Positions 1-13,767 of a stretch of 58,182 bases of DNA are shown here, piece by piece (position 1 is the stretch's first letter; the number at the start of each line of letters is the position of its first letter). A program made the position numbers and the translations under genes. A model generated the notes under the pieces. The model saw only the letters and a list, made by a program, of their open reading frames with translations, had not been told where the DNA came from and searched no databases. Source of the stretch: Puia dinghuensis (GTDB lineage: Bacteria; Bacteroidota; Bacteroidia; Chitinophagales; Chitinophagaceae); the NCBI GenBank assembly GCA_026225275.1, contig JAMFSL010000150.1:1-58182 (forward strand). Direction: 5' to 3'.

Positions 1-1088
1 AGGTAGTTGAACGAAAAATAATAGGTCGATTTGCCGCTGCCGCCGCCGACGGATATGTTATGGCTCTGCATGGAAGCCGGTTTAAAGATGTCTTTGAACC
101 AGTTGTTGCCGTTTCGATCGGCCAGCGTAATATGATTGGTATACAGGTTATAGTCCGCGAGGCTGGTATTCGGGGCGCCCTGTGGTGCGCCCGCCGGCGT
201 GATATAATAAGGCAGGACGGGAGTTGCACCGTTGCCGTATTGGGGATCATTCGGGGAAAGGCCATCATTAAAGGCCATGGCCCATTTGACATTTCCCGTC
301 TGCGTCGGCGTGGCCAGGTCCCAGCTATGGCTGAGCGGCCGCTGCGTCCCATAATACGCATCGTAGTTGACCTTGACATTACCATTCCCTTTTTTGGTCG
401 TAATGACGATGACCCCGTTGGCTCCGCGGACGCCATAAATAGCCGTCGCGCCGGCGTCCTTCAGGACCTGGAGGGATTGGATATCATTCGGGTTGATATC
501 ATGCATGAGCTCGGGCACCCCATCGACGAGGATCAGCGGATTCGAGTTGTTCGGAGAGGTAATCCCGCGGACCAGGATCGTGGCGTTCCCGCCGGGCTGA
601 CCGGTCGAGAAAACGGTTACACCGGCAGCCTGGCCTTGCAACAAAGCTTCCGTGCTTCCAGTAGGAGTCGCCTTCATGTCAGTGACATTGACGACGGCGA
701 CCGAACCTACGATGTCTTTTTTCCGCTGGCTGGTATAACCTGTAACCACTACATCATTAAGAGTGGAGGTGGTCGTCGCCAGGCTGATATCACCAGTGGG
801 CGTACCGGCCGTGACCGGTACTTCAAGTGTCCCCAGGCCGACTGCAGAAATAACGAGTGTTCCTTTAGATCCCGGAACGTTGATAGAGAAAGTACCGTCT
901 GTTTTTGTCTGGGTAATAACGCTAGAACCTTTTAGCTGGACTGTGGCGCCCGGAACCGGTGAATTGTCAGTCTTATTGATGACCCTTCCGGTGACTGCAT
1001 TGTTCTGAGCATACGCTGAGGCAGTGGACAGAAGGAACAACAAGACGATGGAACCGATCTGATGCAGCCATTTTGTTTTCTTTGGCAT
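1..1088 (-). CDS. SusC/RagA-type TonB-linked outer-membrane transporter, N-terminal part
   Basis: This is the first 362 codons of a SusC-like TonB-dependent transporter; the rest lies beyond the left edge. The ATG at 1088 opens a signal peptide (MPKKTKWLHQ, hydrophobic stretch, then AYAQ). A carboxypeptidase-regulatory-like beta-sandwich follows (about residues 30-105), then the plug domain with family hallmarks: DVVVTGY, LLQGQAAGV, ILVDGVP and LKDAGATAIYGVRGANGV. Proteins of this family import oligosaccharides or other large nutrients across the outer membrane, normally with a SusD lipoprotein encoded just downstream, here out of view. The gene has its own promoter and operator pair upstream, so it belongs to the same regulon as the GH2 operon. 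The substrate cannot be told from this fragment. Confidence 0.93.
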   Translation of the reverse strand, partial: MPKKTKWLHQIGSIVLLFLLSTASAYAQNNAVTGRVINKTDNSPVPGATVQLKGSSVITQTKTDGTFSINVPGSKGTLVISAVGLGTLEVPVTAGTPTGDISLATTTSTLNDVVVTGYTSQRKKDIVGSVAVVNVTDMKATPTGSTEALLQGQAAGVTVFSTGQPGGNATILVRGITSPNNSNPLILVDGVPELMHDINPNDIQSLQVLKDAGATAIYGVRGANGVIVITTKKGNGNVKVNYDAYYGTQRPLSHSWDLATPTQTGNVKWAMAFNDGLSPNDPQYGNGATPVLPYYITPAGAPQGAPNTSLADYNLYTNHITLADRNGNNWFKDIFKPASMQSHNISVGGGSGKSTYYFSFNY

Positions 1089-1138
1089 AAGCAATCGTTT
1101 GTTTAAATTTTCAGATAATTTAGAAAGTATGGTCATCG

Positions 1139-1166
1139 CAAATCTAATTTTGAATTACTCCAACAA
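1139..1166 (-). promoter_or_regulatory. Bacteroidetes-type promoter of the SusC gene
   Basis: On the minus strand the sequence TAGATTTG (1146-1139) matches the Bacteroidetes -7 consensus TAnnTTTG exactly. TTG triplets at 1166-1164 and 1163-1161 are possible -33 elements. The leader to the ATG would be about 45 nt. The upstream edge of the -7 box is 32 bp from the first operator repeat, the same distance as at the other two promoters of this locus. Assignment is by motif and geometry; no transcript data are available. Confidence 0.7.
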
Positions 1167-1177
1167 CTATTTTTCTA

Positions 1178-1249
1178 CCACATCATCACTACATCACACG
1201 CTCAGGATGTGCGGAAAATCAATGTTTTCGCCACATCTTTACTACATCT
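1178..1249 (-). promoter_or_regulatory. Operator array A: two pairs of ACATC direct repeats
   Basis: On the plus strand the pairs are CCACATCATCACTACATCA (1178-1196) and CCACATCTTTACTACATCT (1231-1249). The ACATC cores start at 1180, 1191, 1233 and 1244, so spacings are 11, 42 and 11 bp. Read in the direction of SusC transcription each pair is GATGTAG, four bases, GATGTGG. The same array lies upstream of two other minus-strand genes at the same distance from the -7 box, which points to activator binding. The likely partner, by inference only, is the LuxR-HTH regulator encoded at 8478-11393. Confidence 0.75.
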
Positions 1250-1255
1250 ATTTGA

Positions 1256-2812
1256 CTATTGCCCCTTCGGCACTGAATTGCTGACAAAGGCGATGTGTTT
1301 ACCATCGGGCGACCAGGAGGGCGCATTCAACGTTCCTTGTCCGCCATACAGATAAGCAATCACCCGCGGACCGCCCCCGGTAGTCAAAGGCATTACGCGC
1401 AACATCACATTTTTATAGGAAGGATGCTCATCGGGATTGATATCCTCCGGGAAAGAGATGAATACCATCCATTTTCCATCGGGTGAGATGTGGGGAAACC
1501 AGCTATGATATTGGTCGAAAGTCAACTGTTCCTTATCAGAGCCATCGGGTTTCATCCGCCAGATCTGCATGGTGCCTGTAACATTCGCATTGTAATAGAT
1601 GTATTTGCCATCGGGTGAATATTCCGATCCGTCTACGTGGGTATGGTTGCCCTCTGTGAGGAGTGTTTCCTTATTATCTTTTAAAGAGACCTTATAGAGG
1701 TTATAGTTCGGAGAGCCATTGCGTTTGGCGACGATGGCCACTTCTTTACCGTTGGGCGCCCAACCATGCAGGAAGGAGGGCGTGTTTTCGGTGACCTGTT
1801 TGGGGTCGCCGCCAGCCAACGGCAGAGTATAGACAAATGACCCGGGCGCATCAGGCTTGCCACTGCTGATGCCCAACATTTTACCGTCGAAGGAGATCAT
1901 GTGGTCGTTGTTGATCTTCGCGACAGCGCCCGTGTTGAGCTTTTCGGGTGTGCCGCCTTCGATGGGGATCGTCCAGAGGGAGCCGTCCTGGTTGAACAAT
2001 AATTTCTTCCCATCAGGCATGTAGTTAGGCGCTTCGAAACGGCCCGGCGCCTCGAGGATCACCTTGCGTGCCCCGTCGGCTACATCGACGATCTCGAGAC
2101 GGCTGCCCATCACTTCTTTCGTCGTAGCCTGCACCAGGTGCGGGTTACCAATATAGGGGACGATCACCGGTACGTCGATGCGGACGTTCCAGACTTTGGC
2201 AGTGGCGGCCTTCGCCGAATCATGTGAGCAGATATAGATCCCGACCAGTACGTCCTTGTCCAGGGCGTCGGTTTCGCAGGTACCTACCAGCTGCAGCGGT
2301 TCGCCGGGGTGAGCGATACTCATGGTGATTGTCTTGCCGATCCTTTCGAGCTGGATCGTCTGTCCGCCTTTTTTGGAAAGGAATCTTTCTTCTTCCGGAT
2401 CGCGCATGAACATCCCTTTATAAGGGCGCCACTGAAGGACGACCAGCCCATCGATATGTTTGCAGGCGTTGGCGCTGGCTGCGCCGGCATCCGTGGATTC
2501 ACGGATCATCCAGCCGATCTTGCGGTGACCGGTTGCATTTGACGTGTCGCCGGTGAAGGCGAAATCGGCGGTAAGGATGAAGTCCCCCTTCATCTTTTTA
2601 TAGACGAATTGATATTCGTCATGATTGAACCAGATGTTGTCACCCGCGCCTTTGATATTATAGGTCTGGGAGGCTTCGTCATAAGAAGCGTCTCCTGCCA
2701 GCTTCGGGTTACCGATGTCCATGTGGTCTTCGAAGATCCCTACCGGGTGCTGGGCCAGCAGTGATGTGGCTGTCAGGACGCCTGCAATAAAAAAGAAAAA
2801 TGTCAATTTCAT
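1256..2812 (-). CDS. Secreted concanavalin-like/PD40 (TolB-like) propeller protein, copy 1
   Basis: The 518-residue product has a Sec signal peptide (MKLTFFFFIAG to LLAQ). Residues 22-215 resemble a LamG/DUF1349-type concanavalin fold, and residues 225-518 form a WD40-like PD40 propeller with repeats SPDGKYIYYN, SPDGKWMVF and SPDGKHIAFVS. PD40 propellers of the TolB type bind ligands or proteins, and no catalytic motif is apparent. It is closely related to the product of 6703-8223; both share the MQIWRMKPDGS block and the ending SWSPD-K-IAF-SN. It is the last gene of a run of four minus-strand genes (isomerase-like, GH2 and the other copy upstream), so a role in sensing or breaking down a glycan or glycoside at the cell surface or in the periplasm is likely. 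Confidence 0.85.
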   Translation of the reverse strand: MKLTFFFFIAGVLTATSLLAQHPVGIFEDHMDIGNPKLAGDASYDEASQTYNIKGAGDNIWFNHDEYQFVYKKMKGDFILTADFAFTGDTSNATGHRKIGWMIRESTDAGAASANACKHIDGLVVLQWRPYKGMFMRDPEEERFLSKKGGQTIQLERIGKTITMSIAHPGEPLQLVGTCETDALDKDVLVGIYICSHDSAKAATAKVWNVRIDVPVIVPYIGNPHLVQATTKEVMGSRLEIVDVADGARKVILEAPGRFEAPNYMPDGKKLLFNQDGSLWTIPIEGGTPEKLNTGAVAKINNDHMISFDGKMLGISSGKPDAPGSFVYTLPLAGGDPKQVTENTPSFLHGWAPNGKEVAIVAKRNGSPNYNLYKVSLKDNKETLLTEGNHTHVDGSEYSPDGKYIYYNANVTGTMQIWRMKPDGSDKEQLTFDQYHSWFPHISPDGKWMVFISFPEDINPDEHPSYKNVMLRVMPLTTGGGPRVIAYLYGGQGTLNAPSWSPDGKHIAFVSNSVPKGQ

Positions 2813-2840
2813 ATGTTGAGCGTTTTTTTACAGGCAACAA

Positions 2841-2878
2841 GGTCCCGTTCGCGTCCCGGAGAATTTTTTTCCGGGACC
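2841..2878 (-). other. Intercistronic hairpin between the GH2 and PD40 genes
   Basis: GTCCCGG (2853-2859) and CCGGGAC (2871-2877) can form a 7-bp stem with an A/T-rich loop. A second GGTCCCG copy at 2841-2847 could pair with the same right arm. No T tract follows in the direction of transcription, so a processing or mRNA-stability hairpin inside the operon is more likely than a terminator. Confidence 0.4.
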
Positions 2879-2908
2879 CGTCAAAAGCGGGCCATAGGTT
2901 GAAGGTCG

Positions 2909-5707
2909 TTAAGGGTTAAGGCGTTGTGTCGCCATTGCGATGTTCCAACCCTCGAGTCTCAGCTGTGGTACAACACCCTTCAGCTCTTCCGTCGGACAGC
3001 TAACCTTTACAGTTATAGATTTGCCGGCGGGAATGGAAAAATAATTATCGGACCAATAGCTGGGCAATACTTCCTCTCCGTCCCTGATGATCTGGGGGTT
3101 GAGGAAAAAAGCCAGCTGTGAAGAGACATTGGTAAATACAAGTGTCCAGTCATTGTAACCATCCCGTCGACCCTCAGTCAGGACTTTAATCTGTACGCTC
3201 GCAGAGGACATTTTCCGGAGGCTGGTGAAGTCATGGCCAGGAGACATCCAATAGACATTCTGTGACAGGACCTTGCCATCGCGGTCCTTCAGTTTGAGCA
3301 GGACAAAGGAGATGCCCTGCGTCTGGCGGAGGATGTCCCTGACAGGTAACACTTCTTTGGCATCGGCCGTGTCTACGTCTGCCTGCCCCTGCTTTTTGAA
3401 AATAGAGGCGCCGTCGATGCCGACTATTTCGGCTTCATATTGCAAACCGGATCTTTTAATATAGGTGCGGTTAACCACGGCTACCGAGGAGTCATCCAGG
3501 TTGAGCTGAATATGTACCGGCTCGCAGGCTCTTTGCATGAAGTAGTAGCCCGCGTTAGGTTCGAGGTACCAATCATATACCTGCCAGATGACGCTGGGGA
3601 AGGCGGCATTCAGTTTCCAGAGCATGACGCCGCCCGTCTCTCTGATCTTATGTTCGGCCGCTTCGAAAGTGCCACGATAACCGCCGGCATTCAAGAGCTG
3701 CATTTTTTCGGAGAAATCGCGGATGCTGACGGGTGCGCCGAAGCGGGCGGCCATCGCTTTATAATACGTTTCATAGTGGCCATTTCCGGTACAAGCATCA
3801 TGGTAGCCCCATGAGTTGTTCAGCGGATAGGGCAGATTAGCATCCGGCACGAGGTCGGGGATGATCTTCGCCAGGGTATTATACGGTGGCTGGGAAGGGA
3901 TACCTGTCTCATCTTTGAAGAGCCAGTCCTTTCCGGCATCCACCAACCGGTAATATTGTGCGTCGTCCTGCCAGGAGTAGGGTCCCCCGCTGTAAACACC
4001 GGCGGGTTTGTTGTCGGGCCAGGAGCCGGGCCAGTCTTTCGGCGCCTTGGAAAATCCGGAAGAGCAGGGGATAAAGGGGCGGGTGCCGTCGAGGTTGGCC
4101 ACGTTATCGCGCATGGCGTCATAGAGTTCCTTTCGGGCATGGCCTTCATTGCCACCCGTCCAGACCAGCAGGCTGGGATGATTGCGGATGCGGTAGATCG
4201 TGCTGATCACGTTATCGACAAAGACAGAAGTCTGCAGCGGCCAGTCCGCCGAGCCTTTGAAGCCGCCGTTCGTATCGCCGGTGATCCAGAAATCCTGCCA
4301 GACCAGCATGCCATACCTATCAGCCATTTCATAAAAATCGTCCGTTTCGCCAAGACCGCCGCCCCAGATGCGGACCATGTCCACATTGGCATTGCGGCAA
4401 AGACGCATTTCATATTCATACCGCTGACGGGTTCTGTTGAGCATCATATCCGGTACCCAGGCACCGCCCAGCAGCTGTACCTTTTTTCCGTTGACATAGA
4501 AGTCGCGCCGCACCCATCCGTTAACGGTAACAGCCGCGGAGCTGACCGTGCGGATACCGAAGACGATGGTGGTGTCGTCGGAAATGCCGCTGGCATCCGT
4601 ATACCGAAGGCGAAGGCGATACAAGTTCGGATCTCCATAGCCGTTAGGCCACCAGAGTTTCGGCCGATGGATCAGCAGGGACGGGAAGTCGGCGGCGGAC
4701 AGGTGGATGTCTGCGGAGCCCGATGCGTCTATCGTCGCGGGTTTAATGAACCGGATTGTCGCGGAGCCTGTTCCTGCAAAATTTTCGGGGCTGATCGAGA
4801 CCTCGATATTTCCTTTTCGCGCCGAAGTGCTGTTATTGGACAGGGTGACATCTATAGACAATTTTGCCAATCCAGTATCAGGCAGGTTCGGCAGATCGGT
4901 GACAATACGTGGTTTGCTGATAACGACCTGACCCGTGGTACGCAAGTATACCGGCTGCCAGATACCCATATTGCGATCATGCACTTCGGGTATCCAGTCC
5001 CAGCCTACTGAGCTCAGCATGGTCACATTTTTCCCGATGTCGCCGGTGGGACCGCCATTGTCACCGAAATCATCCAGCGCCTCTACTTGCGGCGGTGCGG
5101 GCAGACCCGGGTAATCCAGCGGATATATTTTTACGGCCAGGGCATTCTCTTCTCCGGGACGAATGGCGGCGCTGGCATCGAGGTCGAACTCTTCGAACAT
5201 CCCTACCATGCGAGCGGAATCGGCGAGCATTAGGCCATTCAGCCAGACTTCCGCCCGGTAGTTGATCCCTTTGAAGATGAGTTGAAAATGTTTGCCCTTA
5301 TCGGCAGCCGGGACGGCGAACGTAGTTCTGTACCAGTATGGCTTCTTCCAGGGATTGGGCTCGTTAGGCATGTGACTGTACTGTTCCAGGTGCCAGGTCT
5401 TGTTAAATGAATCGTTGGCATCCGGGATCAGCATGTTGTTCATCCCGATATAGGGATCGGGATAGACCTTATTGGCCACCAGACCGGTTAGCACGGTGCA
5501 GGGAACGGTGACAGGGAACCAATAATTTTTTGGTGTATAGTGTACGGAAGACAGTGAATCACCACCCGAGGAAACGATGGCGGATGACTGTAAAGTGAAA
5601 CGTGAAAGCCTGACCTGGCTGACGGTGGATTGAGCCGACAACATACCAGGCCAACAAAGCAGGGCACAGGAAGCCGCGAAAATGATATTAGAAATGCCTT
5701 TCTTCAT
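2909..5707 (-). CDS. Glycoside hydrolase family 2, exo-beta-D-glucosaminidase (CsxA)-like
   Basis: This encodes a secreted enzyme of about 932 residues with signal peptide (MKKGISNIIF to MLSAQ). The order is a GH2 sugar-binding jelly roll (about 40-225), an immunoglobulin-like domain (about 260-385), the TIM barrel (about 395-690) and C-terminal beta domains. The acid/base Glu is in VWTGGNEG (about residue 521) and the nucleophile Glu in FKDETG (about 600). The latter replaces the usual SEFG and resembles the NSET motif of exo-beta-D-glucosaminidases. The segment GVMLWKLNAAFPSVIWQVYDW also fits CsxA-like GH2 enzymes better than beta-galactosidases or mannosidases. ATG at 5707 was chosen; a TTG nine bases upstream is also in frame. 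It lies in the operator-controlled operon. True substrate uncertain. Confidence 0.88.
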   Translation of the reverse strand: MKKGISNIIFAASCALLCWPGMLSAQSTVSQVRLSRFTLQSSAIVSSGGDSLSSVHYTPKNYWFPVTVPCTVLTGLVANKVYPDPYIGMNNMLIPDANDSFNKTWHLEQYSHMPNEPNPWKKPYWYRTTFAVPAADKGKHFQLIFKGINYRAEVWLNGLMLADSARMVGMFEEFDLDASAAIRPGEENALAVKIYPLDYPGLPAPPQVEALDDFGDNGGPTGDIGKNVTMLSSVGWDWIPEVHDRNMGIWQPVYLRTTGQVVISKPRIVTDLPNLPDTGLAKLSIDVTLSNNSTSARKGNIEVSISPENFAGTGSATIRFIKPATIDASGSADIHLSAADFPSLLIHRPKLWWPNGYGDPNLYRLRLRYTDASGISDDTTIVFGIRTVSSAAVTVNGWVRRDFYVNGKKVQLLGGAWVPDMMLNRTRQRYEYEMRLCRNANVDMVRIWGGGLGETDDFYEMADRYGMLVWQDFWITGDTNGGFKGSADWPLQTSVFVDNVISTIYRIRNHPSLLVWTGGNEGHARKELYDAMRDNVANLDGTRPFIPCSSGFSKAPKDWPGSWPDNKPAGVYSGGPYSWQDDAQYYRLVDAGKDWLFKDETGIPSQPPYNTLAKIIPDLVPDANLPYPLNNSWGYHDACTGNGHYETYYKAMAARFGAPVSIRDFSEKMQLLNAGGYRGTFEAAEHKIRETGGVMLWKLNAAFPSVIWQVYDWYLEPNAGYYFMQRACEPVHIQLNLDDSSVAVVNRTYIKRSGLQYEAEIVGIDGASIFKKQGQADVDTADAKEVLPVRDILRQTQGISFVLLKLKDRDGKVLSQNVYWMSPGHDFTSLRKMSSASVQIKVLTEGRRDGYNDWTLVFTNVSSQLAFFLNPQIIRDGEEVLPSYWSDNYFSIPAGKSITVKVSCPTEELKGVVPQLRLEGWNIAMATQRLNP

Positions 5708-5738
5708 GACAAACAATTTACTTACAGCGACAATGCTG

Positions 5739-6614
5739 CTAGTAATCCAATTTTGCTAAATAATCATAATCTATTTGAATACTCTCGAAGGCTGAATGAG
5801 CGTATTCCTCCTGTTCGAGGAAAAAGTGCTTCATCCCAGCCTGTTTGGCGTGCTGCAACAAGCCTTTGATATTTACATTACCCAGACCGAATTCAACGCT
5901 GTGGTGCTTGACCTTATCCATGTCTTTCAGGTGCCAGAGCGGGAAACGGCCGGGATACTGATTGAAATATTGAAAGGGATCATGACCTGCGGCCACTACC
6001 CAGCCCAGGTCCATTTCCATGGTGACGAGACTTGGGTCGGTGTTTTTGAGGAGAACGTCGTAGAGAACCGTTCCGTTATCTGTAGCAAATTCCGAGTCGT
6101 GATTGTGATAGCCGAAGTGAAGGCCGGCTTTTTTACATTGTTCGCCCAGTTTGTTAAAGGCCTCGGCAGACTCCTTGTAGTGATCTGCCGTCTGACCCTG
6201 GGAAGGCAGCACGGCAGAAATGATATAGCTCTGACCGGTTTCCGTTGCTTCTTCTAGTGATTTTTGCCAGTCATTGTCTACGTGGATATGGCCACTGCGC
6301 AATTTCATGCCGAGGTCATCGCAGATCTTGCGGATCTCTTTGGGTTTGAGTCCATAGTAATTGCCTTTATCACTGCGGGCCGATTCGATCTCTTTGAATC
6401 CGATCGCCGCTATCTTTTTAAGGGTGCCGGCGGGATCTGCCAGCATTTCGGTCCGCACTGTATACAGCTGGATACCGATGTCCTTTACCCTTGTGGCCGG
6501 AAAAGCCGAACGGCCGAGTTTCGGTAGAAAGAGGGCGCCTGCGGCCAAAAAGGCTGAGTTTTTCAGGAAATTTAGTCGCCCGGACGGAAGAGAAAAACGG
6601 TTTTGTTTCTGCAT
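5739..6614 (-). CDS. Exported sugar phosphate isomerase/epimerase-like TIM barrel, copy 1
   Basis: The ATG at 6614 gives a protein of 291 residues starting MQKQNRFSLP; upstream in-frame codons reach into the intercistronic hairpin and do not look like protein. The N-terminus has a hydrophobic signal segment (NSAFLAAGALFLP). The rest is an AP-endonuclease-2/xylose-isomerase-like TIM barrel with the usual metal-site blocks: IGIQLYTVR, FGYHNHDSEF, MEMDLGWVVAAGHDP, LWHLKDMDK and FFLEQEEY. Members isomerise, epimerise or cleave sugars and keto-sugars; an exported form beside SusC and GH2 genes suggests action on a released sugar in the periplasm. It is a paralogue of the product of 11476-12393. 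The exact reaction is not predictable. Confidence 0.85.
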   Translation of the reverse strand: MQKQNRFSLPSGRLNFLKNSAFLAAGALFLPKLGRSAFPATRVKDIGIQLYTVRTEMLADPAGTLKKIAAIGFKEIESARSDKGNYYGLKPKEIRKICDDLGMKLRSGHIHVDNDWQKSLEEATETGQSYIISAVLPSQGQTADHYKESAEAFNKLGEQCKKAGLHFGYHNHDSEFATDNGTVLYDVLLKNTDPSLVTMEMDLGWVVAAGHDPFQYFNQYPGRFPLWHLKDMDKVKHHSVEFGLGNVNIKGLLQHAKQAGMKHFFLEQEEYAHSAFESIQIDYDYLAKLDY

Positions 6615-6641
6615 GAGCAATCGTTTTAACGTTGAAGAAAG

Positions 6642-6689
6642 GTTACAAGCTCCGGCAAGTGGCCATTCACACTCGCCAGGAGCCGTAAC
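6642..6689 (-). other. Intercistronic hairpin between the isomerase-like and second PD40 genes
   Basis: GTTAC (6642-6646) pairs with GTAAC (6685-6689), GCTCC (6649-6653) with GGAGC (6679-6683), and GGC with GCC further in. The result is a long interrupted stem within the 88-nt gap between two genes of the same operon. There is no U-run in the minus-strand direction. It may set the relative mRNA level of the upstream PD40 gene against the downstream genes. Confidence 0.45.
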
Positions 6690-6702
6690 AGAAAGGAGGC
6701 AG

Positions 6703-8223
6703 CTAATTACCTCCCATATCGGTATTGCTGATAAAAGCAATCTTTTTACTATCCGGTGACCAGGACGGGGTATTCATCGATCCCTGTCCGCCGTATATAT
6801 AAGCCAGGACTTTCGGGGTGCCTTTGCCGTCGAGCGGCAGGACACGGATATAGCAATGTTTGTAGGGCGGATGGATACCGGCAGGCGTTTCTTCCGGAAG
6901 GAAAGTGATGTAAGCGATCCATTTCCCGTCCGGGGAGATATGGGCGAACCAGTTATCGTAATTGTCGTTCGTGATCTGTTCCTGCTGGCTACCGTCAGGC
7001 TTCATGCGCCAGATCTGCATCAGGCCTGAGCGAACGGAGTTGAAATAAATATACTGGCCGTCGGGCGTATATTCGGGACCATCATCGAGGCCCTTGGCAT
7101 CCGTGAGGCGAATTTCCTTGCCGCCTGTGGCAGGGATCTTATACACATCGAATTCGCCGTTGCGTTCCCCGCAGAAGACGAGGTCTTTGCCATCTGGTGA
7201 CCAGCCATGCGTATAGGAAGGGCCTTTCGGAGTGATCTGCGTAGGTTGTCCACCGCCGATGGGTATCGTATAGCTGATCGAGCCGCCGAGTTCTTTTACG
7301 AAGCTGCTCAATCCCAGCATCTTGCCGTCGAAGGAAATGACATGGTCATTATTGTTATGGTCTGCGATGCCGGTGTGGATGGCCATTGGTGAACGGGTAG
7401 CGATGTCGAAATTATAAAGAGTTCCCTTTGCGTCATTAAAAATGAAGCTTTTGCCGTCAGGCGTCCAGTTTGGCGCCTGGATGGAATAGGGCACTTTATA
7501 AACCGTCTCGAGGTGGCCGGAGGCTACGTCGACGATCTGGAGATTGCTACCCAGAGTCATCTGGGTTTGCTGGTTGGATTCGCCTTTATATGGGCTAGTG
7601 ATGCTGACGTTGCTGAAAACACCGGTTTCGAGCACATCTGCATTATGAGAACCTACGAAAAGGCCTACATATACTTCATCTCCCAGGTCGAGGGTAGCGG
7701 TATCGGTGACGAAGGTATCGCCATAGATGGCCGCACGCATAATGTACTGGTTACCCTTTCTTTCGAGCTGGAGTATGTTGGCGTGAGTCATTTTAAGTTT
7801 GTGTTCCTGCGTCTGTGCTCCGGCCGTCGGGCGAAACTGGAGGGAAGTAAGGCCATCTCCATGCTCAACGGCATTGATATGCGGAGAGTTTCCATCCAGG
7901 CTTTGCCGGACCATCCAACCCACTTTGCGGTGATAGTTGACCCAGGTGCCAAGAAATTCCGCACGTGTATAGAGGATGAAGTCACCCTTTATCTTCTTAT
8001 ATACATATTGAAATTCGTCGTGGTCGGCCCAGACATTGTACCCGGCTCCGGTGATCACATATTGACCGGCTTCAGGAATAAAAGTGGCCGATCCGGGTTT
8101 AACGTTTGTTCCGACGTCACTATGACCGTCAAAAATACCTATAGACTGTGAAAATGCGGGCGATGTAAAAAAGAGGGCGGCGACGGTAAGTAGTTGCAGG
8201 GCATTAGTCGGTTTCATTTTCAT
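6703..8223 (-). CDS. Secreted concanavalin-like/PD40 (TolB-like) propeller protein, copy 2
   Basis: About 506 residues from the ATG at 8223 (a second ATG at 8217 is equally possible; a TTG at 8232 less so). Signal peptide ends near SPAFSQ. Residues 25-215 are concanavalin-like, with KKIKGDFILYT and HRKVGWMVRQS matching copy 1. The C-terminal half is a PD40 propeller with TPDGKSFIFND, SPDGKDLVFCG, TPDGQYIYFNS, SPDGKWIAYIT and SPDSKKIAFIS. It is the first gene of the operon that continues through the isomerase-like, GH2 and copy 1 genes, and it sits directly behind promoter and operator array B. No catalytic residues recognised; likely a binding or sensing role, or an uncharacterised enzyme. 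Confidence 0.86.
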   Translation of the reverse strand: MKMKPTNALQLLTVAALFFTSPAFSQSIGIFDGHSDVGTNVKPGSATFIPEAGQYVITGAGYNVWADHDEFQYVYKKIKGDFILYTRAEFLGTWVNYHRKVGWMVRQSLDGNSPHINAVEHGDGLTSLQFRPTAGAQTQEHKLKMTHANILQLERKGNQYIMRAAIYGDTFVTDTATLDLGDEVYVGLFVGSHNADVLETGVFSNVSITSPYKGESNQQTQMTLGSNLQIVDVASGHLETVYKVPYSIQAPNWTPDGKSFIFNDAKGTLYNFDIATRSPMAIHTGIADHNNNDHVISFDGKMLGLSSFVKELGGSISYTIPIGGGQPTQITPKGPSYTHGWSPDGKDLVFCGERNGEFDVYKIPATGGKEIRLTDAKGLDDGPEYTPDGQYIYFNSVRSGLMQIWRMKPDGSQQEQITNDNYDNWFAHISPDGKWIAYITFLPEETPAGIHPPYKHCYIRVLPLDGKGTPKVLAYIYGGQGSMNTPSWSPDSKKIAFISNTDMGGN

Positions 8224-8271
8224 CTCAAGCAATTAAAAAAATTTTAATAAGATCGTGTGCGTTAGTAGGAA

Positions 8272-8279
8272 CAAATATA
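8272..8279 (-). promoter_or_regulatory. -7 box of the PD40/isomerase/GH2 operon
   Basis: TATATTTG on the minus strand (8279-8272) is a perfect TAnnTTTG. It is 49 bases upstream of the ATG at 8223 and 32 bp from the first operator repeat at 8311, exactly as in the SusC promoter. CAAA at 8293-8296 (TTTG on the coding strand) is a poorly spaced -33 candidate, which would fit an activator-dependent promoter. Confidence 0.7.
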
Positions 8280-8310
8280 GATCGGGTTTTCACAAACCGC
8301 CAGTTTTTGA

Positions 8311-8382
8311 CTACATCTATACTACATCATACCTCAAAAAACCCTTGATTACAGTGGATTATTCCACATCAACACTACATCA
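8311..8382 (-). promoter_or_regulatory. Operator array B: two pairs of ACATC direct repeats
   Basis: Plus-strand pairs are CTACATCTATACTACATCA (8311-8329) and CCACATCAACACTACATCA (8364-8382). Cores start at 8313, 8324, 8366 and 8377, so spacings are 11, 42 and 11 bp, identical to array A. The array lies between the minus-strand operon and the plus-strand regulator gene. It is placed like arrays A and C relative to the minus-strand promoter, so the operon is the main target. An effect on the regulator's own promoter about 60 bp away is also possible. Confidence 0.75.
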
Positions 8383-8440
8383 TTTCTTTTTCAGACCGAT
8401 TTCAGGTACTTCTTTTTAGGTCTGATGAATCAAATTATTT

Positions 8441-8448
8441 TATCTTTA
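8441..8448 (+). promoter_or_regulatory. Possible -7 box of the regulator gene
   Basis: TATCTTTA matches TAnnTTTG at seven of eight positions. It would start transcription near 8455 and so favours the ATG at 8478 over the in-frame TTG at 8451 as the start codon of the regulator. No clear -33 element is visible. Confidence 0.35.
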
Positions 8449-8477
8449 GGTTGAAGGACGTATTAAAAGTATTTGGA

Positions 8478-11393
8478 ATGAGATTGAGTCTAACTGCCTG
8501 CCTGTTTTGCTTCACCCTGGTCTGCCATAGCCAGAATACCATAGGAATCCCGGATATCATTAATTATTCGCGGGATCTCTATAATGCCGGTACCCAGAAC
8601 AGGGGTATCGTGCAGGATAAGAATGGGGTGATGTACTTTGCCAACTATGAGGGGCTCCTCACTTTTGACGGCAATTACTGGAAAAACTACCCTCTCCCTA
8701 ACAAGACAGTAGTCCGAAGCATTGCGCTGGGTAAAGACAACCGGATCTATGCCGGCGGACAAGACGATTTTGGCTATTTTTCCCCCGACAGCCATGGTAA
8801 GCTGGTCTATACCTCCCTGAAAAGCCTGTTGACGGAGAAAAATTACTCGTTCTCGGATGTCTGGAATATCGTTCCCTACGGAAATGACGTCTTTTTCTTG
8901 TGCCGGGAGAAAATCTTTCAGTTGAACAACAAGTCGATTACCGTGTATCCCGCGGTTTCCGATTGGCTATACCTGGGAGAAAGCAACGGCCAGCTGATCG
9001 CCCAGGACCAGCGGAACGGACTCCTGGAATTCAAAGATGGGTTATGGGCGCCATTTGTGCAGGAGAGCGCCCTTCCTGCCACCTGCCTGGTCACGAGCAT
9101 CTTCCCTTTCGGCAAGGACAGCTCCTTTATGTGCACAGTGAATACCGGCTTTTATATTCTTGCGGGGAAAAAGATCACTCCATTTCATTTCAACGGGCCG
9201 AATCCCTTTACTAATGAGCGCGTTTTAACGGCTATTTCGGTCAGCAATGACTGGCTGGCCATCGGGACCAACCTGGATGGCACTTATATCGTGAACAAAA
9301 AGGGGGAGATTATCCAAAATCTTTCCCGTAAGGAGGGGCTGCAGAACAACAATATCCTGGATCTTTTCCTGGACAAAAACAAGAATCTCTGGCTGGGACT
9401 TGACAACGGTATCGATTTTATCGCCTATAATAATGCCATCAAGCATATTTACCCTGAAAAGCTGAATGAAGGATTGGGTTATATTGCCTACATCTATAAC
9501 AAAGAGCTGTTTGTGGGGACTTCCAACGGGCTGTACAGTTTGCCGACAGAAGAAAAGCAAGACCTCAGTTTTTTGCGGGGTGAATTTAAATCCATTCCCG
9601 GAACCAAGGGTTCGACCTGGGGGTTATCGGAGGTAAACGGTAGTCTCCTGTTGGGTCATCATGATGGCGCGTTCCGGATCAAAAACGACCGGCTGATCAC
9701 TATCGATACGGGAACTTCCTATTGGGGATTCATTCCTTTTTCCAATGTGCTGCCCTCCTCGTTGATCCTGGGAGGCGACGATAAGGGGGTCGATTTAATC
9801 AGATATGAAAACGATCGTTTTACGTCAATGGGCAATATTCCCGGGTTTGAAGCCAGCGCCCAGTTCATGGCCATGGACAACAACAATATGGCTTGGATAG
9901 CCCATCCCTATCGCGGGGTCTACAAACTGGATCTGAATGATACGGCGCATATCAAGTTTAAATTATATACCGGAAAGAATGGTCTGCCATCCTACCTGAA
10001 GAATCACCTTTTTAAAATAAAGAACCATATCGTGGTGGCGACAGAAAAGGGCGTCTACGAATACAACGCGCAGGCGGACTCTTTCGAATTATCCGCCTAT
10101 TTCAAGCCTTTCTTTGGAGAAAAGAATATCCGATACCTGAGAGAGGATGGGGCGGGCAACATCTGGTTCATAGAGGATAATAGCCTGGGCATCGTTGACC
10201 TGTCGGGACCACAGCCGGAGACTATCTATTTCCCGGAGCTGAGCGGCAAGCTGGTAGCCGATTATGAGCTCATTTATCCCTATGATAAATACAACGTATT
10301 CGTTGGCGCTGAAAAGGGATTCTATCATATCAATTATGAAGAATACAAGCAGAACCGGTACCCGATACAGGCAGGGATCCGGGCCGTCAGGGTATTTGGC
10401 AAAACGGACAGTCTTTTGTACAGCGGTTATTTCGGTGAAGTGGGGGACAGTTTGGATCAACCACCTGCAGCGGTGTACAGCATCCCGTTCAAATGGAATT
10501 CCCTGCATTTTGAATATACTTCCCCTATGTACGCGGCGCAGAGCAGTATCTTGTACAGTTATAATTTGAAAGGATTCGACAAGGACTGGTCGGCATGGTC
10601 GAAGAAAACGGAGAAGGAATATACCAATTTGCCGGCCGGTACTTATACTTTCCAGATCAAAGCCAAAAGCAATCTTGGCAACGAATCGGCAGTCACCGAA
10701 TATTCCTTTACCATTCTGCCGCCGTGGTATCAAACCGGCTGGGCTTATCTATTGTATACCTTGTTATTTTCCGGCCTTGTCTACCTGCTATATTACTGGC
10801 AGCGGCGGATATTCGTCCAGCAGCAGAAGCGGCACGAGGATGAACAGAAGCGGCTGCAATACCTGCATCAGCTGGAGATGGAAAAGTCAGAGAAAGAGAT
10901 TGTCAGTCTGAAGAATGAGAAGCTGGAGGCGGAGATCGAGCATAAGAATACCGAGCTGGCTTCGGCCGCCATGCACCTGGTCCAGAAGGGCGAATTGCTG
11001 AGTAATATCCGGGAAGAACTCATCCGGATGAAAAAGGGGGTGAATGGGGACGGTTCGTCGGACGAATTCAAAAAAATGCTCCGGATATTAGGCGAGGAGA
11101 ACAAGATGGACAAGGACTGGGAGCAGTTTGCTGTTCACTTCGACAAAGTACACAGCGATTTCCTGCAGATCCTGAAGGCAACTTATCCAGTGCTCAGCTC
11201 TCATGAGCTGAAGCTATGCGCCTATCTGCGGATGAATCTTTCCAGTAAGGAAATTGCGCAGTTGGAGAATATCTCTGTACGAGGGGTGGAGATCAGCCGC
11301 TATCGGTTGAGGAAGAAGCTGAAGATCCCGACGGAGATCAACTTATTCGACTTCCTGATGGAGCTGCATTCGAGAGGAAAAAATGGCGCGTAA
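8478..11393 (+). CDS. Membrane-spanning propeller/Y_Y_Y/LuxR-HTH transcriptional regulator
   Basis: The predicted product (about 971 residues) has a signal peptide (MRLSLTACLFCFTLVCHS), a two-domain beta-propeller region of the 'two-component regulator propeller' type (about 25-630; repeats such as DKNKNLWLGLDNG and DGAGNIWFIEDNS), a Y_Y_Y domain (about 670-755, ending YTFQIKAKSNLGNES), one transmembrane helix (about 765-785), a coiled coil (about 790-850) and a C-terminal LuxR-like HTH (LSSHELKLCAYLRMNLSSKEIAQLENIS). No histidine kinase or receiver domain is present, so a periplasmic ligand signal would pass straight to the DNA-binding domain in one protein. Its position inside the locus makes it the likely reader of operator arrays A-C; that link is inference. 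Confidence 0.9.
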   Translation: MRLSLTACLFCFTLVCHSQNTIGIPDIINYSRDLYNAGTQNRGIVQDKNGVMYFANYEGLLTFDGNYWKNYPLPNKTVVRSIALGKDNRIYAGGQDDFGYFSPDSHGKLVYTSLKSLLTEKNYSFSDVWNIVPYGNDVFFLCREKIFQLNNKSITVYPAVSDWLYLGESNGQLIAQDQRNGLLEFKDGLWAPFVQESALPATCLVTSIFPFGKDSSFMCTVNTGFYILAGKKITPFHFNGPNPFTNERVLTAISVSNDWLAIGTNLDGTYIVNKKGEIIQNLSRKEGLQNNNILDLFLDKNKNLWLGLDNGIDFIAYNNAIKHIYPEKLNEGLGYIAYIYNKELFVGTSNGLYSLPTEEKQDLSFLRGEFKSIPGTKGSTWGLSEVNGSLLLGHHDGAFRIKNDRLITIDTGTSYWGFIPFSNVLPSSLILGGDDKGVDLIRYENDRFTSMGNIPGFEASAQFMAMDNNNMAWIAHPYRGVYKLDLNDTAHIKFKLYTGKNGLPSYLKNHLFKIKNHIVVATEKGVYEYNAQADSFELSAYFKPFFGEKNIRYLREDGAGNIWFIEDNSLGIVDLSGPQPETIYFPELSGKLVADYELIYPYDKYNVFVGAEKGFYHINYEEYKQNRYPIQAGIRAVRVFGKTDSLLYSGYFGEVGDSLDQPPAAVYSIPFKWNSLHFEYTSPMYAAQSSILYSYNLKGFDKDWSAWSKKTEKEYTNLPAGTYTFQIKAKSNLGNESAVTEYSFTILPPWYQTGWAYLLYTLLFSGLVYLLYYWQRRIFVQQQKRHEDEQKRLQYLHQLEMEKSEKEIVSLKNEKLEAEIEHKNTELASAAMHLVQKGELLSNIREELIRMKKGVNGDGSSDEFKKMLRILGEENKMDKDWEQFAVHFDKVHSDFLQILKATYPVLSSHELKLCAYLRMNLSSKEIAQLENISVRGVEISRYRLRKKLKIPTEINLFDFLMELHSRGKNGA

Positions 11394-11420
11394 AAAAAGG
11401 CGCCCCTTTTCGGGGGCGCC
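11392..11420 (-). terminator. Intrinsic terminator of the second isomerase-like gene, overlapping the regulator stop
   Basis: GGCGCCCC (11399-11406) and GGGGCGCC (11413-11420) form an 8-bp GC stem. On the minus strand it is followed by a run of seven T (11398-11392), which lies in the stop codon of the convergent regulator gene. It should stop transcripts from 11476-12393. On the plus strand the hairpin directly follows the regulator stop codon but lacks a strong T tract. Confidence 0.75.
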
Positions 11421-11475
11421 CGGCGGAAAATATTATCGGGATTCGTTGCGATGCTGCGGACCCGATCTCGTCCTG

Positions 11476-12393
11476 CTATACCAAATTTGACTTGATATAC
11501 GTGATACTGTCGGTAATCGCATCGAATGGGGAACCGGGGGTTCTGTCCTGTTCGACAAACCAATATTGCAAACCGGCCGTTTTGGCCTGCGTGAAAATCT
11601 TTTTGAAGTCGATAGTGCCTGTACCAACGGCAGCGGTATCGTAAGGGGCCGTTTTCGCCACGTCTTTCAGATGCCAGAGCGGGAACCGTCCCGGATGTTC
11701 CTGGAAGATCTTGATCGGATCGTGACCCGCCTTCGTAACCCAGAAAAGATCCAGTTCGAATTTCACGAGTTTAGGATCGGTATTCTGAAGCAGCACCTGG
11801 TAAGGGAGGGTGGCGCCATATTGCGGATCGAATTCAAAGTCGTGGTTATGGTAGCAGAATTGGATACCGGCCGCTTTACATTTTTCACCGGCGACATTGA
11901 AGTCGGCGGCCATCTTCTTATAATGGTCGAGACCTACGCGTTCTTTTGGCGAGAGCCACGCGCATACCATATATTTAATCCCCAGCGTGTGGGCATCGGC
12001 TACGGTTTTGTCCCAGTCGTGCAGGATAGTGCCGTTGAAAACGCCGTCGGTGAGCGCAGGGGCCCCGGAAGGATCTTCGCCGAAACGGTAATGGCAGCTA
12101 CGCATGATCAGGCCATTGTTTTTCAATACCCCGGCAAAAGTTTGCGGGTCCATGCCGTAGAATTTTTCCGTTCCGGTATAAGTGGCCCCTTCCATAGAAT
12201 TATACCCGATCTGGGCGACCTTTGCCAGTGTCCCGGTGGGGTCTTTGGCCATAGCGTCCCGGACGGTATACAATTGCAGGCCGAGGGCCTTCGTATCTCT
12301 GTCGGGTCTTACAAAAGAGGAGAGACCCGGAACTGCCAGGACTCCGGCAGAATAAAAAGAGGCGCTTTTGAGAAAAGATCTTCTGGTATGCAT
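11476..12393 (-). CDS. Tat-exported sugar isomerase/epimerase-like TIM barrel, copy 2
   Basis: The 305-residue protein begins MHTRRSFLKSASF, a twin-arginine signal, followed by GVLAVPGLSSF. The mature part is an AP-endonuclease-2/xylose-isomerase-like barrel with LGLQLYTVRDA, FCYHNHDFEF, FELDLFWVTKAGHDP, LWHLKDVAK and YWFVEQD. It is a clear paralogue of the product of 5739-6614, which has a different N-terminal signal. Tat export implies folding, probably with metal, in the cytoplasm. It is monocistronic, with its own promoter, operator array C and terminator. Relatives act on sugars, inositols or 3-keto-glycosides; the actual substrate is unknown. Confidence 0.87.
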   Translation of the reverse strand: MHTRRSFLKSASFYSAGVLAVPGLSSFVRPDRDTKALGLQLYTVRDAMAKDPTGTLAKVAQIGYNSMEGATYTGTEKFYGMDPQTFAGVLKNNGLIMRSCHYRFGEDPSGAPALTDGVFNGTILHDWDKTVADAHTLGIKYMVCAWLSPKERVGLDHYKKMAADFNVAGEKCKAAGIQFCYHNHDFEFDPQYGATLPYQVLLQNTDPKLVKFELDLFWVTKAGHDPIKIFQEHPGRFPLWHLKDVAKTAPYDTAAVGTGTIDFKKIFTQAKTAGLQYWFVEQDRTPGSPFDAITDSITYIKSNLV

Positions 12394-12437
12394 ATCGTTT
12401 TTTTTGAGCCCTTCGGCCCGGTGATGAGTTACAATAC

Positions 12438-12445
12438 CGAATTTA
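12438..12445 (-). promoter_or_regulatory. Probable -7 box of the second isomerase-like gene
   Basis: TAAATTCG on the minus strand differs from TAnnTTTG at one position. It was found by looking at the spacing seen at the other two promoters: it lies 45 bases from the ATG and 32 bp from the first operator repeat. The shared spacing is stronger evidence than the motif alone. Confidence 0.55.
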
Positions 12446-12476
12446 CATTGCCGGCGTCCACGGCCCTATTCCGGCA

Positions 12477-12537
12477 CTACATCAAGACTACATCATGCTA
12501 TGATGAAGCAGTATTTCACCACATCATCCTTACATCA
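12477..12537 (-). promoter_or_regulatory. Operator array C: two pairs of ACATC direct repeats, shorter gap
   Basis: Plus-strand pairs are CTACATCAAGACTACATCA (12477-12495) and CCACATCATCCTTACATCA (12519-12537). Cores start at 12479, 12490, 12521 and 12532: spacings 11, 31 and 11 bp. The central gap is 11 bp shorter than in arrays A and B, about one helical turn, so all half-sites stay on the same face of the DNA. The array lies between the divergent isomerase-like and thioredoxin-like genes; its spacing to the -7 box ties it to the isomerase-like gene. Confidence 0.72.
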
Positions 12538-12606
12538 ATACCCTGAAAGTAGCGATTCAGCGGGAATTTAAGGCTGCAAAATTGTAACTTCCATAAAATA
12601 TGCCAT

Positions 12607-13755
12607 ATGAAATTGCATTCTATCCTCCCTGCATTCTTTGTGCTGTTGTTGTGTTGCGCCGGGTTTATCCGGCCTACAGTTAACCTGCCTGCTCTTGGCG
12701 GTGATCATCCTACTTTAGCTATCGGGGCGTCCGCGCCGGATTTTTCGTTGATGGGCACCGATGGAAAGACCTATAGTCTGGCCTCCTTCAAGAATGCCAA
12801 AGTGCTGGTCGTTGTGTTTACGTGTAATCATTGCCCTACCGCTCAGGCATATGAGGACAGAATCATTCAGTTGACAAAAGATTACAAAGATAAGGGGGTG
12901 GCGGTGCTGGCTATTATGCCCAATGACCCTACATCCATCCAGCTGAGTGAGTTGGGCTATACGGATATGGGTGATAGCTTCGACGAGATGAAGCGCCGGG
13001 CGGCCGAAAAACATTATAATTTTCCCTATCTGTTTGACGGAAAGACCGAGACTGCCGCCCATGCCTACGGACCGATAGCGACGCCGCATGTCTTCATTTT
13101 CGACCAGGCCCGCAAGCTGCGGTATAGCGGCCGGATAGACGACGTAGAGAAACCGACGAAAACGCCGCATACGCAGGATACCCGCAATGCGCTCGATCAA
13201 CTGCTGGCAGGGCAGCCTGTGGCAGAGCCGACGACCAAAGTATTCGGTTGCAGCATCAAATGGGCTGAAAAGAGCGACTGGATCGAGAGGGCCAAGGAAG
13301 AATGGGCCAAGGAACCCGTTACGCTTGATACCATTACGGCCGACGGTATTAAGGAGCTGATCAAGAATAATACCGACAAACTGGTGCTGATCGATGTCTG
13401 GGCCACCTGGTGCGGCCCATGCGTGGTCGAGTTTCCCGATTTCGTCGACATGAACCGGATGTACCGGCGCAGGGACTTCAAGTTCATTAGCATCAGCGCC
13501 GATGAGCCTGCCAAAAAGGATAAAGCGTTAAAGTTCCTGCAGCAGTCCGAGGCATCTAATACCAATTACATCTTCAACATCGACGACAAGTATAAGCTGA
13601 TCGAGGCTATCGATCCCAACTGGCAGGGCGCCCTGCCGTATACCATGATCATCGAACCGGGCGGGAAGATTATTTATGCCAAGGAAGGGCCTGTCGATCC
13701 GGCTGCGATGAAGACGCTGATCGTGGATGATCCCACGATCGGGCGATATTATTGA
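12607..13755 (+). CDS. Secreted protein with two thioredoxin-fold domains
   Basis: The 382-residue protein has a signal peptide (MKLHSILPAFFVLLLCC). Residues 35-195 are an AhpC/TSA-like redoxin domain with the motif FTCNHCPTAQAYEDR, which carries a CxxC pair. Residues 235-380 are a TlpA/ResA-like thioredoxin domain with WATWCGPCVVEFPDF. A linker containing KWAEKSDWIERAKEEW joins them. Such proteins act as periplasmic thiol-disulfide reductases or peroxide-handling enzymes. Both active sites are intact, so electron transfer between the two domains is conceivable. The gene is divergent from the isomerase-like gene and convergent with the AsmA-like gene (12 nt apart). It may or may not belong to the glycan regulon. 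Confidence 0.85.
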   Translation: MKLHSILPAFFVLLLCCAGFIRPTVNLPALGGDHPTLAIGASAPDFSLMGTDGKTYSLASFKNAKVLVVVFTCNHCPTAQAYEDRIIQLTKDYKDKGVAVLAIMPNDPTSIQLSELGYTDMGDSFDEMKRRAAEKHYNFPYLFDGKTETAAHAYGPIATPHVFIFDQARKLRYSGRIDDVEKPTKTPHTQDTRNALDQLLAGQPVAEPTTKVFGCSIKWAEKSDWIERAKEEWAKEPVTLDTITADGIKELIKNNTDKLVLIDVWATWCGPCVVEFPDFVDMNRMYRRRDFKFISISADEPAKKDKALKFLQQSEASNTNYIFNIDDKYKLIEAIDPNWQGALPYTMIIEPGGKIIYAKEGPVDPAAMKTLIVDDPTIGRYY

Positions 13756-13767
13756 TGCCGGGCAGTA

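Follow-up and report, generated by a model that had tools for sequence, protein, structure and literature searches.

In the stretch of Puia dinghuensis DNA analysed here (58,182 nucleotides in its entirety, called the window below), three arrays of tandem CTACATC-like words are probably operators, at which the regulator encoded at 8478-11393 would bind head to tail and activate the neighbouring genes. A preliminary description of this DNA had proposed that the helix-phased tandem repeats are bound by an activator, through the C-terminal domain of the same product, and comparison of genomes lends this proposal strong support through the conservation of the arrays, their fixed orientation, the recurrent distance to the -7 box, the co-occurrence with the regulator and the residue found in its recognition helix. 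Bacteroidota possess many sugar-uptake genes, yet few DNA targets are known for their one-chain membrane regulators; the arrays, conserved in related soil bacteria, offer a readable target code for a little-studied family of membrane sugar sensors, of which this one probably binds the array.

Arrays, promoters and genes of the Puia locus

Each array consists of two tandem pairs of the CTACATC-like word, with the core ACTACATCA and the words of a pair set 11 bp apart. Scanning the whole window for YACATCN5YACATC with at most one mismatch gave seven matches where 0.74 were expected, a number reached by none of 100 shuffles. The six exact matches make up the three four-box arrays, all on the + strand and all intergenic. 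The seventh match carries one mismatch, stands alone at 21114-21130 and is probably due to chance. Array A is composed of pairs at 1178-1195 (CCACATC-ATCA-CTACATC) and 1231-1248 (CCACATC-TTTA-CTACATC), whose first boxes are 53 bp apart, and its boxes are read with exactly the spacings first reported for the susC promoter, 11, 42 and 11 bp. Recurrence of this pattern at two other promoters, also claimed, is true in full for array B (8311-8328, CTACATC-N4-CTACATC, and 8364-8381, again 53 bp apart), which has identical spacings, and in part for array C, where an exact pair at 12477-12494 is followed 42 bp further by one at 12519-12536 with TTACATC as its last box, so that the spacings are 11, 31 and 11 bp and the middle one is 31 instead of 42. 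The first-box distances of 53, 53 and 42 bp in A, B and C correspond to 5, 5 and 4 turns at 10.5 bp.

On its left side each array is separated by 31 bp from the -7 box of a leftward gene. The box of susC, at 1139-1146 of the minus strand, reads TAGATTTG (CAAATCTA on the plus strand) and is an exact TAnnTTTG, as had been described. The box of the 6703-8232 gene lies at 8272-8279 of the same strand (TATATTTG, or CAAATATA on plus), and the one of the 11476-12393 gene at 12438-12445, also on the minus strand, is degenerate, with one mismatch (TAAATTCG, or CGAATTTA on plus). The accessible text of PMC7366714 gives TAnnTTTG at -7 and TTTG near -33 as the primary-sigma elements of Bacteroides fragilis, and reports that Flavobacterium johnsoniae yielded no -33 motif.

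The predicted target of array A is the 5' part of a gene for a susC-like TonB receptor with Plug and CarbopepD_reg_2 domains (3-1088, minus strand), cut by the contig end. Its ORF as listed starts at 1136, which leaves 3 bp to the -7 box; translation more probably begins with the ATG at 1088 (MPKKTKWLHQ...), the form of start that relatives show. Array B would serve a PD40 beta-propeller protein with an N-terminal 'GIFDGHSDVG' domain (6703-8232, minus strand; the ORF is given as listed, and the ATG used in relatives falls inside it). This N-terminal domain (GIFDGHSDVG...AGYNVW...DEF) is common to the PD40 proteins 1256-2812 and 6703-8232 and to a stand-alone remote protein, L034:8899-9723, for which no Pfam or NCBIfam family match was found. 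The leftward target of array C would be a sugar-isomerase-like (AP_endonuc_2) protein at 11476-12393 on the minus strand; its right neighbour is a rightward redoxin/thioredoxin gene at 12607-13755, and the array may serve either of the two. Isomerases and GH2 are also present at the locus according to Pfam. The regulator gene (8478-11393, plus strand) sits between the PD40 and the isomerase-like genes, and between it and array B there is a degenerate extra box, GTACTTC/CTACTTC, seen at 8406-8412 of the window and in 9 of 12 close orthologues, which is possibly an autoregulatory site.

A scan of the whole genome for CYACATC-N4-CTACATC, suggested at the outset as a check, returned six sites where a uniform model expects 0.1; five are in the window, and the looser ACATCN6ACATC occurs at 18 places. 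The sixth strict site (C13:34763) likewise has a -7 box, one mismatch from perfect, at a gap of 31. It is part of an array of four boxes, the third of them degenerate, in which the two pairs are 32 bp (3 turns) apart. The gene behind this array encodes a protein that resembles, at 33 and 37% identity, the N-terminal domain shared by the two PD40 proteins of the window, and is a predicted remote target of related function. The genome encodes one further regulator of the same type, 44% identical, with CTACAATGGTACTACATG upstream in the same tandem form. Another 13 ORFs match the sensor part; by eye their C-termini are of kinase, receiver or AraC type, and an upstream 11-bp repeat of a 7-mer, of unrelated sequence, was present at one of the 13.

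The regulator and the conservation of its upstream arrays

The 980-residue ORF combines a Reg_prop and Y_Y_Y sensor with a transmembrane helix, a coiled coil and a GerE/NarL-type helix-turn-helix (HTH) at about residues 914-961. Judged by its Pfam domains and by a single hydrophobic segment recognised by eye in the translated sequence, it is a membrane-spanning one-chain sensor with a C-terminal HTH and no kinase, as SusR-like regulators are. The Pfam scan found no histidine kinase, receiver or AraC HTH of the kind that marks hybrid two-component systems (HTCS), and neither Pfam nor the structure search found the Trans_reg_C winged helix of the OmpR/PhoB/SARP class. The GerE profile scores 19.3 bits (E 8.9e-4), which is below the Pfam cut-off of 23.5, and 26.3 bits, above it, on the paralogue L033; NCBIfam gave a sub-cut-off match to the BT3442 family and nothing better. 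AlphaFold models the last 190 residues (mean pLDDT 83.7) as a 72-residue helix followed by shorter helices, with a four-helix HTH fold in blocks of pLDDT 88-96. In Foldseek this HTH resembles the DNA-binding domains of FixJ, EvgA, VraR, LiaR and ComA with probabilities up to 1.0 and TM-scores by target of 0.70-0.81 for isolated domains, at E values all above 0.1 (best 0.12; none of 212 matches below 0.001).

Within the genus, 20 of 33 genomes carry the exact pair and 23 the regulator (E 1e-100). Both are present in 19, and the sole genome with the pair and without a regulator match is 65% complete. A scan of 294 genomes from 95 genera of Chitinophagaceae found a homologue at E 1e-120 in 122 of these genomes and 53 of these genera. 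A reversed-pattern control was set aside for the genus and family scans because CTACATC reads the same backwards, which makes such a control not independent. From family genomes that bear the regulator we chose and fetched 60 regions, mostly one per genus, which together with earlier loci gave 110, and we asked, free of any motif, which spacing between copies of an exact 6-mer is commonest in the 350 bp before the homologues. Spacing 11 was on top in all three identity classes (21/25, 27/32 and 22/44 loci) and tied for the top in the remaining nine loci, which lack the helix pattern (4/9). Overall it was seen at 74 of 110 loci versus 29 of 487 control windows from the same loci, where a spacing of median frequency was seen in 30. 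A few of the 74 (e.g. L186, L212 and L221) repeat another sequence, probably by chance.

An iterated weight matrix converged on the consensus ACTACATCAnTACTACATCA, and 87 of 109 upstream regions (L150 was left out for too little upstream sequence) scored above the best shuffled region, all 87 in one orientation; the remaining 22 are without the motif. The matrix was trained on the very regions that it scored, a bias of which the 6-mer spacing scan is free. Both the window scan and the matrix give 7-bp direct repeats with a 4-bp spacer, the form of the OmpR/PhoB/SARP tandem operators, upstream of regulator homologues about 38-91% identical. Of the two outcomes named beforehand as refuting the original proposal, a genome-wide frequency upstream of genes no higher than chance and a lack of conservation in related genomes, neither was observed. 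Three places are duplicated among the 109 (L074/L133, L076/L183 and L082/L181), and strong-motif loci minus L074, L183 and L181 form the set of 85 used for promoter geometry. In this set second pairs are 51-55 bp away in 52 of 57 cases, a distance other than the 67 or 77 bp of SusR-like sites. A divergent leftward ORF is present within 450 bp at 77 of the 85 loci and a long co-directional ORF upstream at one, upstream genes being the longest ATG-started ORFs taken by script, not annotated genes.

The distance to the -7 box recurs as well. Among 58 distinct exact pairs a perfect box is found at a gap of 31-32 in 15 and of 83-85 in 12, the latter being the same box as seen from the second pair, and in 1000 shufflings of the flanks the highest count for two adjacent gaps was 3. 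Counted by leading pair, 18 of the 85 loci possess a perfect box, at gaps of 30 (n=1), 31 (n=15) and 32 (n=2). These promoters span several gene classes, at least susC, PD40 and others, and the counts are not independent because many of the promoters are related by descent. None of the 23 distinct promoters with a box at gap 30-32 has TTTG 16-24 nt upstream of it, which would fit promoters where an activator takes the place of the -33 contact. On the other side, to the right of the last pair, five TAnnTTTG boxes occur at 79-80 bp in the 85 loci (at 79 in 3 of the 58 exact pairs), perhaps as the regulator's own promoter in one clade.

The strict pair CTACATCN3ACTACATC is present in 53 of the 294 family genomes and 31 of the 95 sampled genera, and it follows the regulator: it occurs in 51 of the 122 genomes with a regulator and in 2 of the 172 without a match at 1e-120 (Fisher p 1e-20). 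One of these two (G071) has a 33%-identical homologue that runs off a contig end, and the other (G102) has just a 79-residue match, 67% identical and away from its site. Of 61 strict sites, at least 49 precede a listed regulator by no more than 1.2 kb; among the remaining 12, two stand before further regulator pieces (L261 and L268). The leftward genes at other sites encode GH16 (L265), GH3 (L264, and L267 which looks alike by eye) and, by eye, a susC-like protein (L266); further sites are two before an unassigned 649-residue ORF (L260), array C and the one before the remote Puia gene, and at L262 and L263 the leftward neighbour is not readable. Nine proteins scanned with Pfam (one of them P0002) comprise two GH5, two GH3, one GH16, one ThuA and three without an enzyme family. 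Since GH5, GH16 and GH3 genes stand behind arrays in relatives, these suggest beta-glucans as substrates for some members of the family; matters may be different at the Puia locus, where isomerases and GH2 are encoded. The arrays can in this way hint at what some of the regulators control.

In a phylum-wide sample 99 of 392 genomes have a match at 1e-60, which in some is confined to the sensor part and in at least 72 runs into the HTH. This sample gave 29 new loci, of which the 24 from outside Chitinophagaceae were examined. A pair with at least 12 of 14 matches is present upstream in 7 of these 24 and downstream in one, and 11 is not the top spacing; the operator signal is weaker outside the family. 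Just beyond the 3' end of a 27%-identical regulator (L088, 12906-12923), toward the neighbouring gene, there is an exact CTACATCATTACTACATC, and none upstream.

Recognition helix, proposed mechanism and alternative explanations

In the residue and tree set of 102 loci (without the three duplicates, without L148, and without L149, L224 and L238, which lack the helix pattern) the residue that follows GVE in the recognition helix, I939 in Puia, tracks the operator. The motif is present at 82 of 87 loci with I, V, L or M at this position, and at none with A (0/1) or with T or S (0/14). It is also missing at six further loci with D (0/6), all from one genus outside the family. The position presumably corresponds to a base-contacting valine of NarL. 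On the tree, T/S against motif yields two supported pairs (median p 1). With leucine the second half of the pair reads CC instead of CT in 10 of 11 cases, and with isoleucine CC occurs in three; this covariation of I to L with T to C comprises three independent changes (median p 0.25), and with so few it cannot reach significance. The GVET and GVES loci without an upstream CTACATC are L079, L080, L084, L142-L145, L211, L213, L217, L221, L223, L234 and L236, and the GVED loci L287, L289 and L292-L295. A search for 11-bp repeats of 7-mers in the non-coding parts of the 14 GVET/GVES loci gave three scattered, unlike matches. We tentatively suggest, as something that may well turn out otherwise, that NarL-type sugar sensors tethered to the membrane share, as an entire family, one grammar of 11-bp tandem pairs, whole-turn spacing and 31 bp to an activator-dependent -7 box, and that position 939 sets the word: CTACATC for I, V or M, a CC-rich one for L and another for T, S or D. 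If true, a class of regulators that is otherwise unassigned, and that binds DNA while still in the membrane, would gain a transferable protein-to-DNA code. The association with one residue makes specificity testable by swaps.

The mechanism that would fit these observations starts with the periplasmic propeller and Y_Y_Y part of the regulator sensing a sugar. The signal would pass through one membrane helix to the coiled coil and on to the NarL/FixJ-type HTH. Two such domains would sit on each ACTACATCA-N2-ACTACATCA pair, head to tail and one per helical turn, and with both pairs occupied two dimers, probably as a dimer of dimers, would lie along the same side of the helix. From this position, 31 bp upstream of a -7 box without a TTTG at -33, the regulator would recruit RNA polymerase, so that activation rather than repression is the predicted outcome. 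The activated gene would lie on one fixed side: susC, the PD40 protein and the isomerase in the Puia window, and susC, GH5, GH16 and GH3 in other genomes.

The same regulator might instead bind mainly as a repressor, or at an autoregulatory site, of its own rightward gene, with secondary effects on the left gene. All 87 strong arrays precede the regulator and face it in a single orientation, some beginning 24-60 bp before its start. The extra CTACTTC/GTACTTC box, which 9 of 12 close orthologues have on the regulator side of the array, and the five right-side TAnnTTTG boxes point the same way. We nevertheless regard this explanation as unlikely, since arrays in the same orientation are also found with no regulator on the right (at susC, 1178-1248, and at the GH16, GH3, susC-like and remote sites) and since the -7 box gap is recurrent on the left (31 bp, 14-15 cases) and the right-side cluster is much smaller. 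Still less probable is binding by another factor, such as an HTCS, an ECF sigma factor or an unrelated regulator, with the Y_Y_Y-LuxR gene a mere neighbour. It is true that regulator genes are often located in clusters under the control of others, but motif presence follows this regulator over 294 genomes and follows its recognition-helix residue, and two pairs 31 bp upstream of a primary-sigma -7 box are not expected of ECF promoters. An HTCS as the array-binding protein was considered and found unlikely, as the 8478-11393 product has no kinase, receiver or AraC domains and the spacing is another one: predicted HTCS operators have 21 bp in the available text of PMC3878776. That the repeats are chance, low-complexity sequence or an RNA leader element can practically be dismissed, for although the word is short and A/C-rich, the window shuffles and the conservation upstream of regulator homologues speak against chance, Rfam gave no match in window 1-14000, and the arrays, being upstream of the -7 box, are outside the left gene's transcript.

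Comparison with known systems

The proposed activation by the 8478-11393 regulator from these arrays is closest to what is predicted for SusR-like regulators of Bacteroides. Ravcheev et al. 2013 (PMC3878776), in the part of the paper accessible, predicted direct-repeat operators for them (67 or 77 bp between centres) and for HTCS (21 bp). In common with the description there, ours is a one-chain membrane regulator with a periplasmic sensor and a cytoplasmic C-terminal HTH, encoded beside susC/D-type genes, with an operator of two sites in direct repeat that lie many turns from each other on the same helix face (PMC3878776). It differs in that the SusR-like sites are 67 or 77 bp (6-7 turns) apart and the arrays here mostly 51-55 bp (5 turns), and in that each site here is an 11-bp tandem pair and the HTH is NarL/GerE-like, features that set it apart from the SusR sites as the available text describes them (PMC3878776). 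An 11-bp tandem may be hidden inside each SusR site.

HTCS often carry a related Reg_prop/Y_Y_Y sensor. They also share direct repeats upstream of susC/D genes, and differ by the 21-bp spacing, the AraC HTH and the kinase and receiver domains, as far as the accessible text of PMC3878776 goes. The available part of PMC11253607, on HTCS DNA binding, contains neither 'direct repeat' nor 'tandem'. PMC12125979, in the text at hand, deals with the regulator XylRA, which responds to xylose in Vibrio strains, and was discarded as a precedent.

The fold of the DNA-binding domain and the layout of the recognition helix are those of NarL/FixJ/LuxR-type regulators. The best-known of these bind inverted repeats as symmetric dimers, whereas here the pairs are tandem and a large membrane sensor replaces the receiver or autoinducer domain. 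It raises the question of the mechanics by which a coiled-coil dimer tethered to the membrane contacts two sites, five turns apart, that are each a direct and not an inverted repeat. The OmpR/PhoB box consists of heptamers with 4-bp spacers and an 11-bp period, bound cooperatively head to tail on one face, and both SARP and OmpR/PhoB regulators possess an OmpR-type winged HTH, unlike the NarL/FixJ-type HTH of this regulator. For Streptomyces SARP/PimR the accessible text of PMC5930380 likewise gives heptamers, 4-bp spacers, an 11-bp period and head-to-tail cooperative binding on one face.

No description of 11-bp tandem pairs, of the four-box form or of a ACTACATCA operator was found in the open-licence literature, in so far as its text was accessible. 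The preliminary assertion that no Bacteroidetes operator of this form was known has to be confined to the 11-bp tandem four-box form, and because direct-repeat operators of SusR-like regulators and HTCS were predicted before, in what is available of PMC3878776, we regard the operator as a variant and not a new kind. It can be recognised by pattern alone (CTACATCN3ACTACATC), which links regulators to their targets, remote genes included. New here, within a kind of direct-repeat operator that was already known, are the tandem 11-bp pairs, the four boxes, the NarL-type HTH and the 5-turn spacing.
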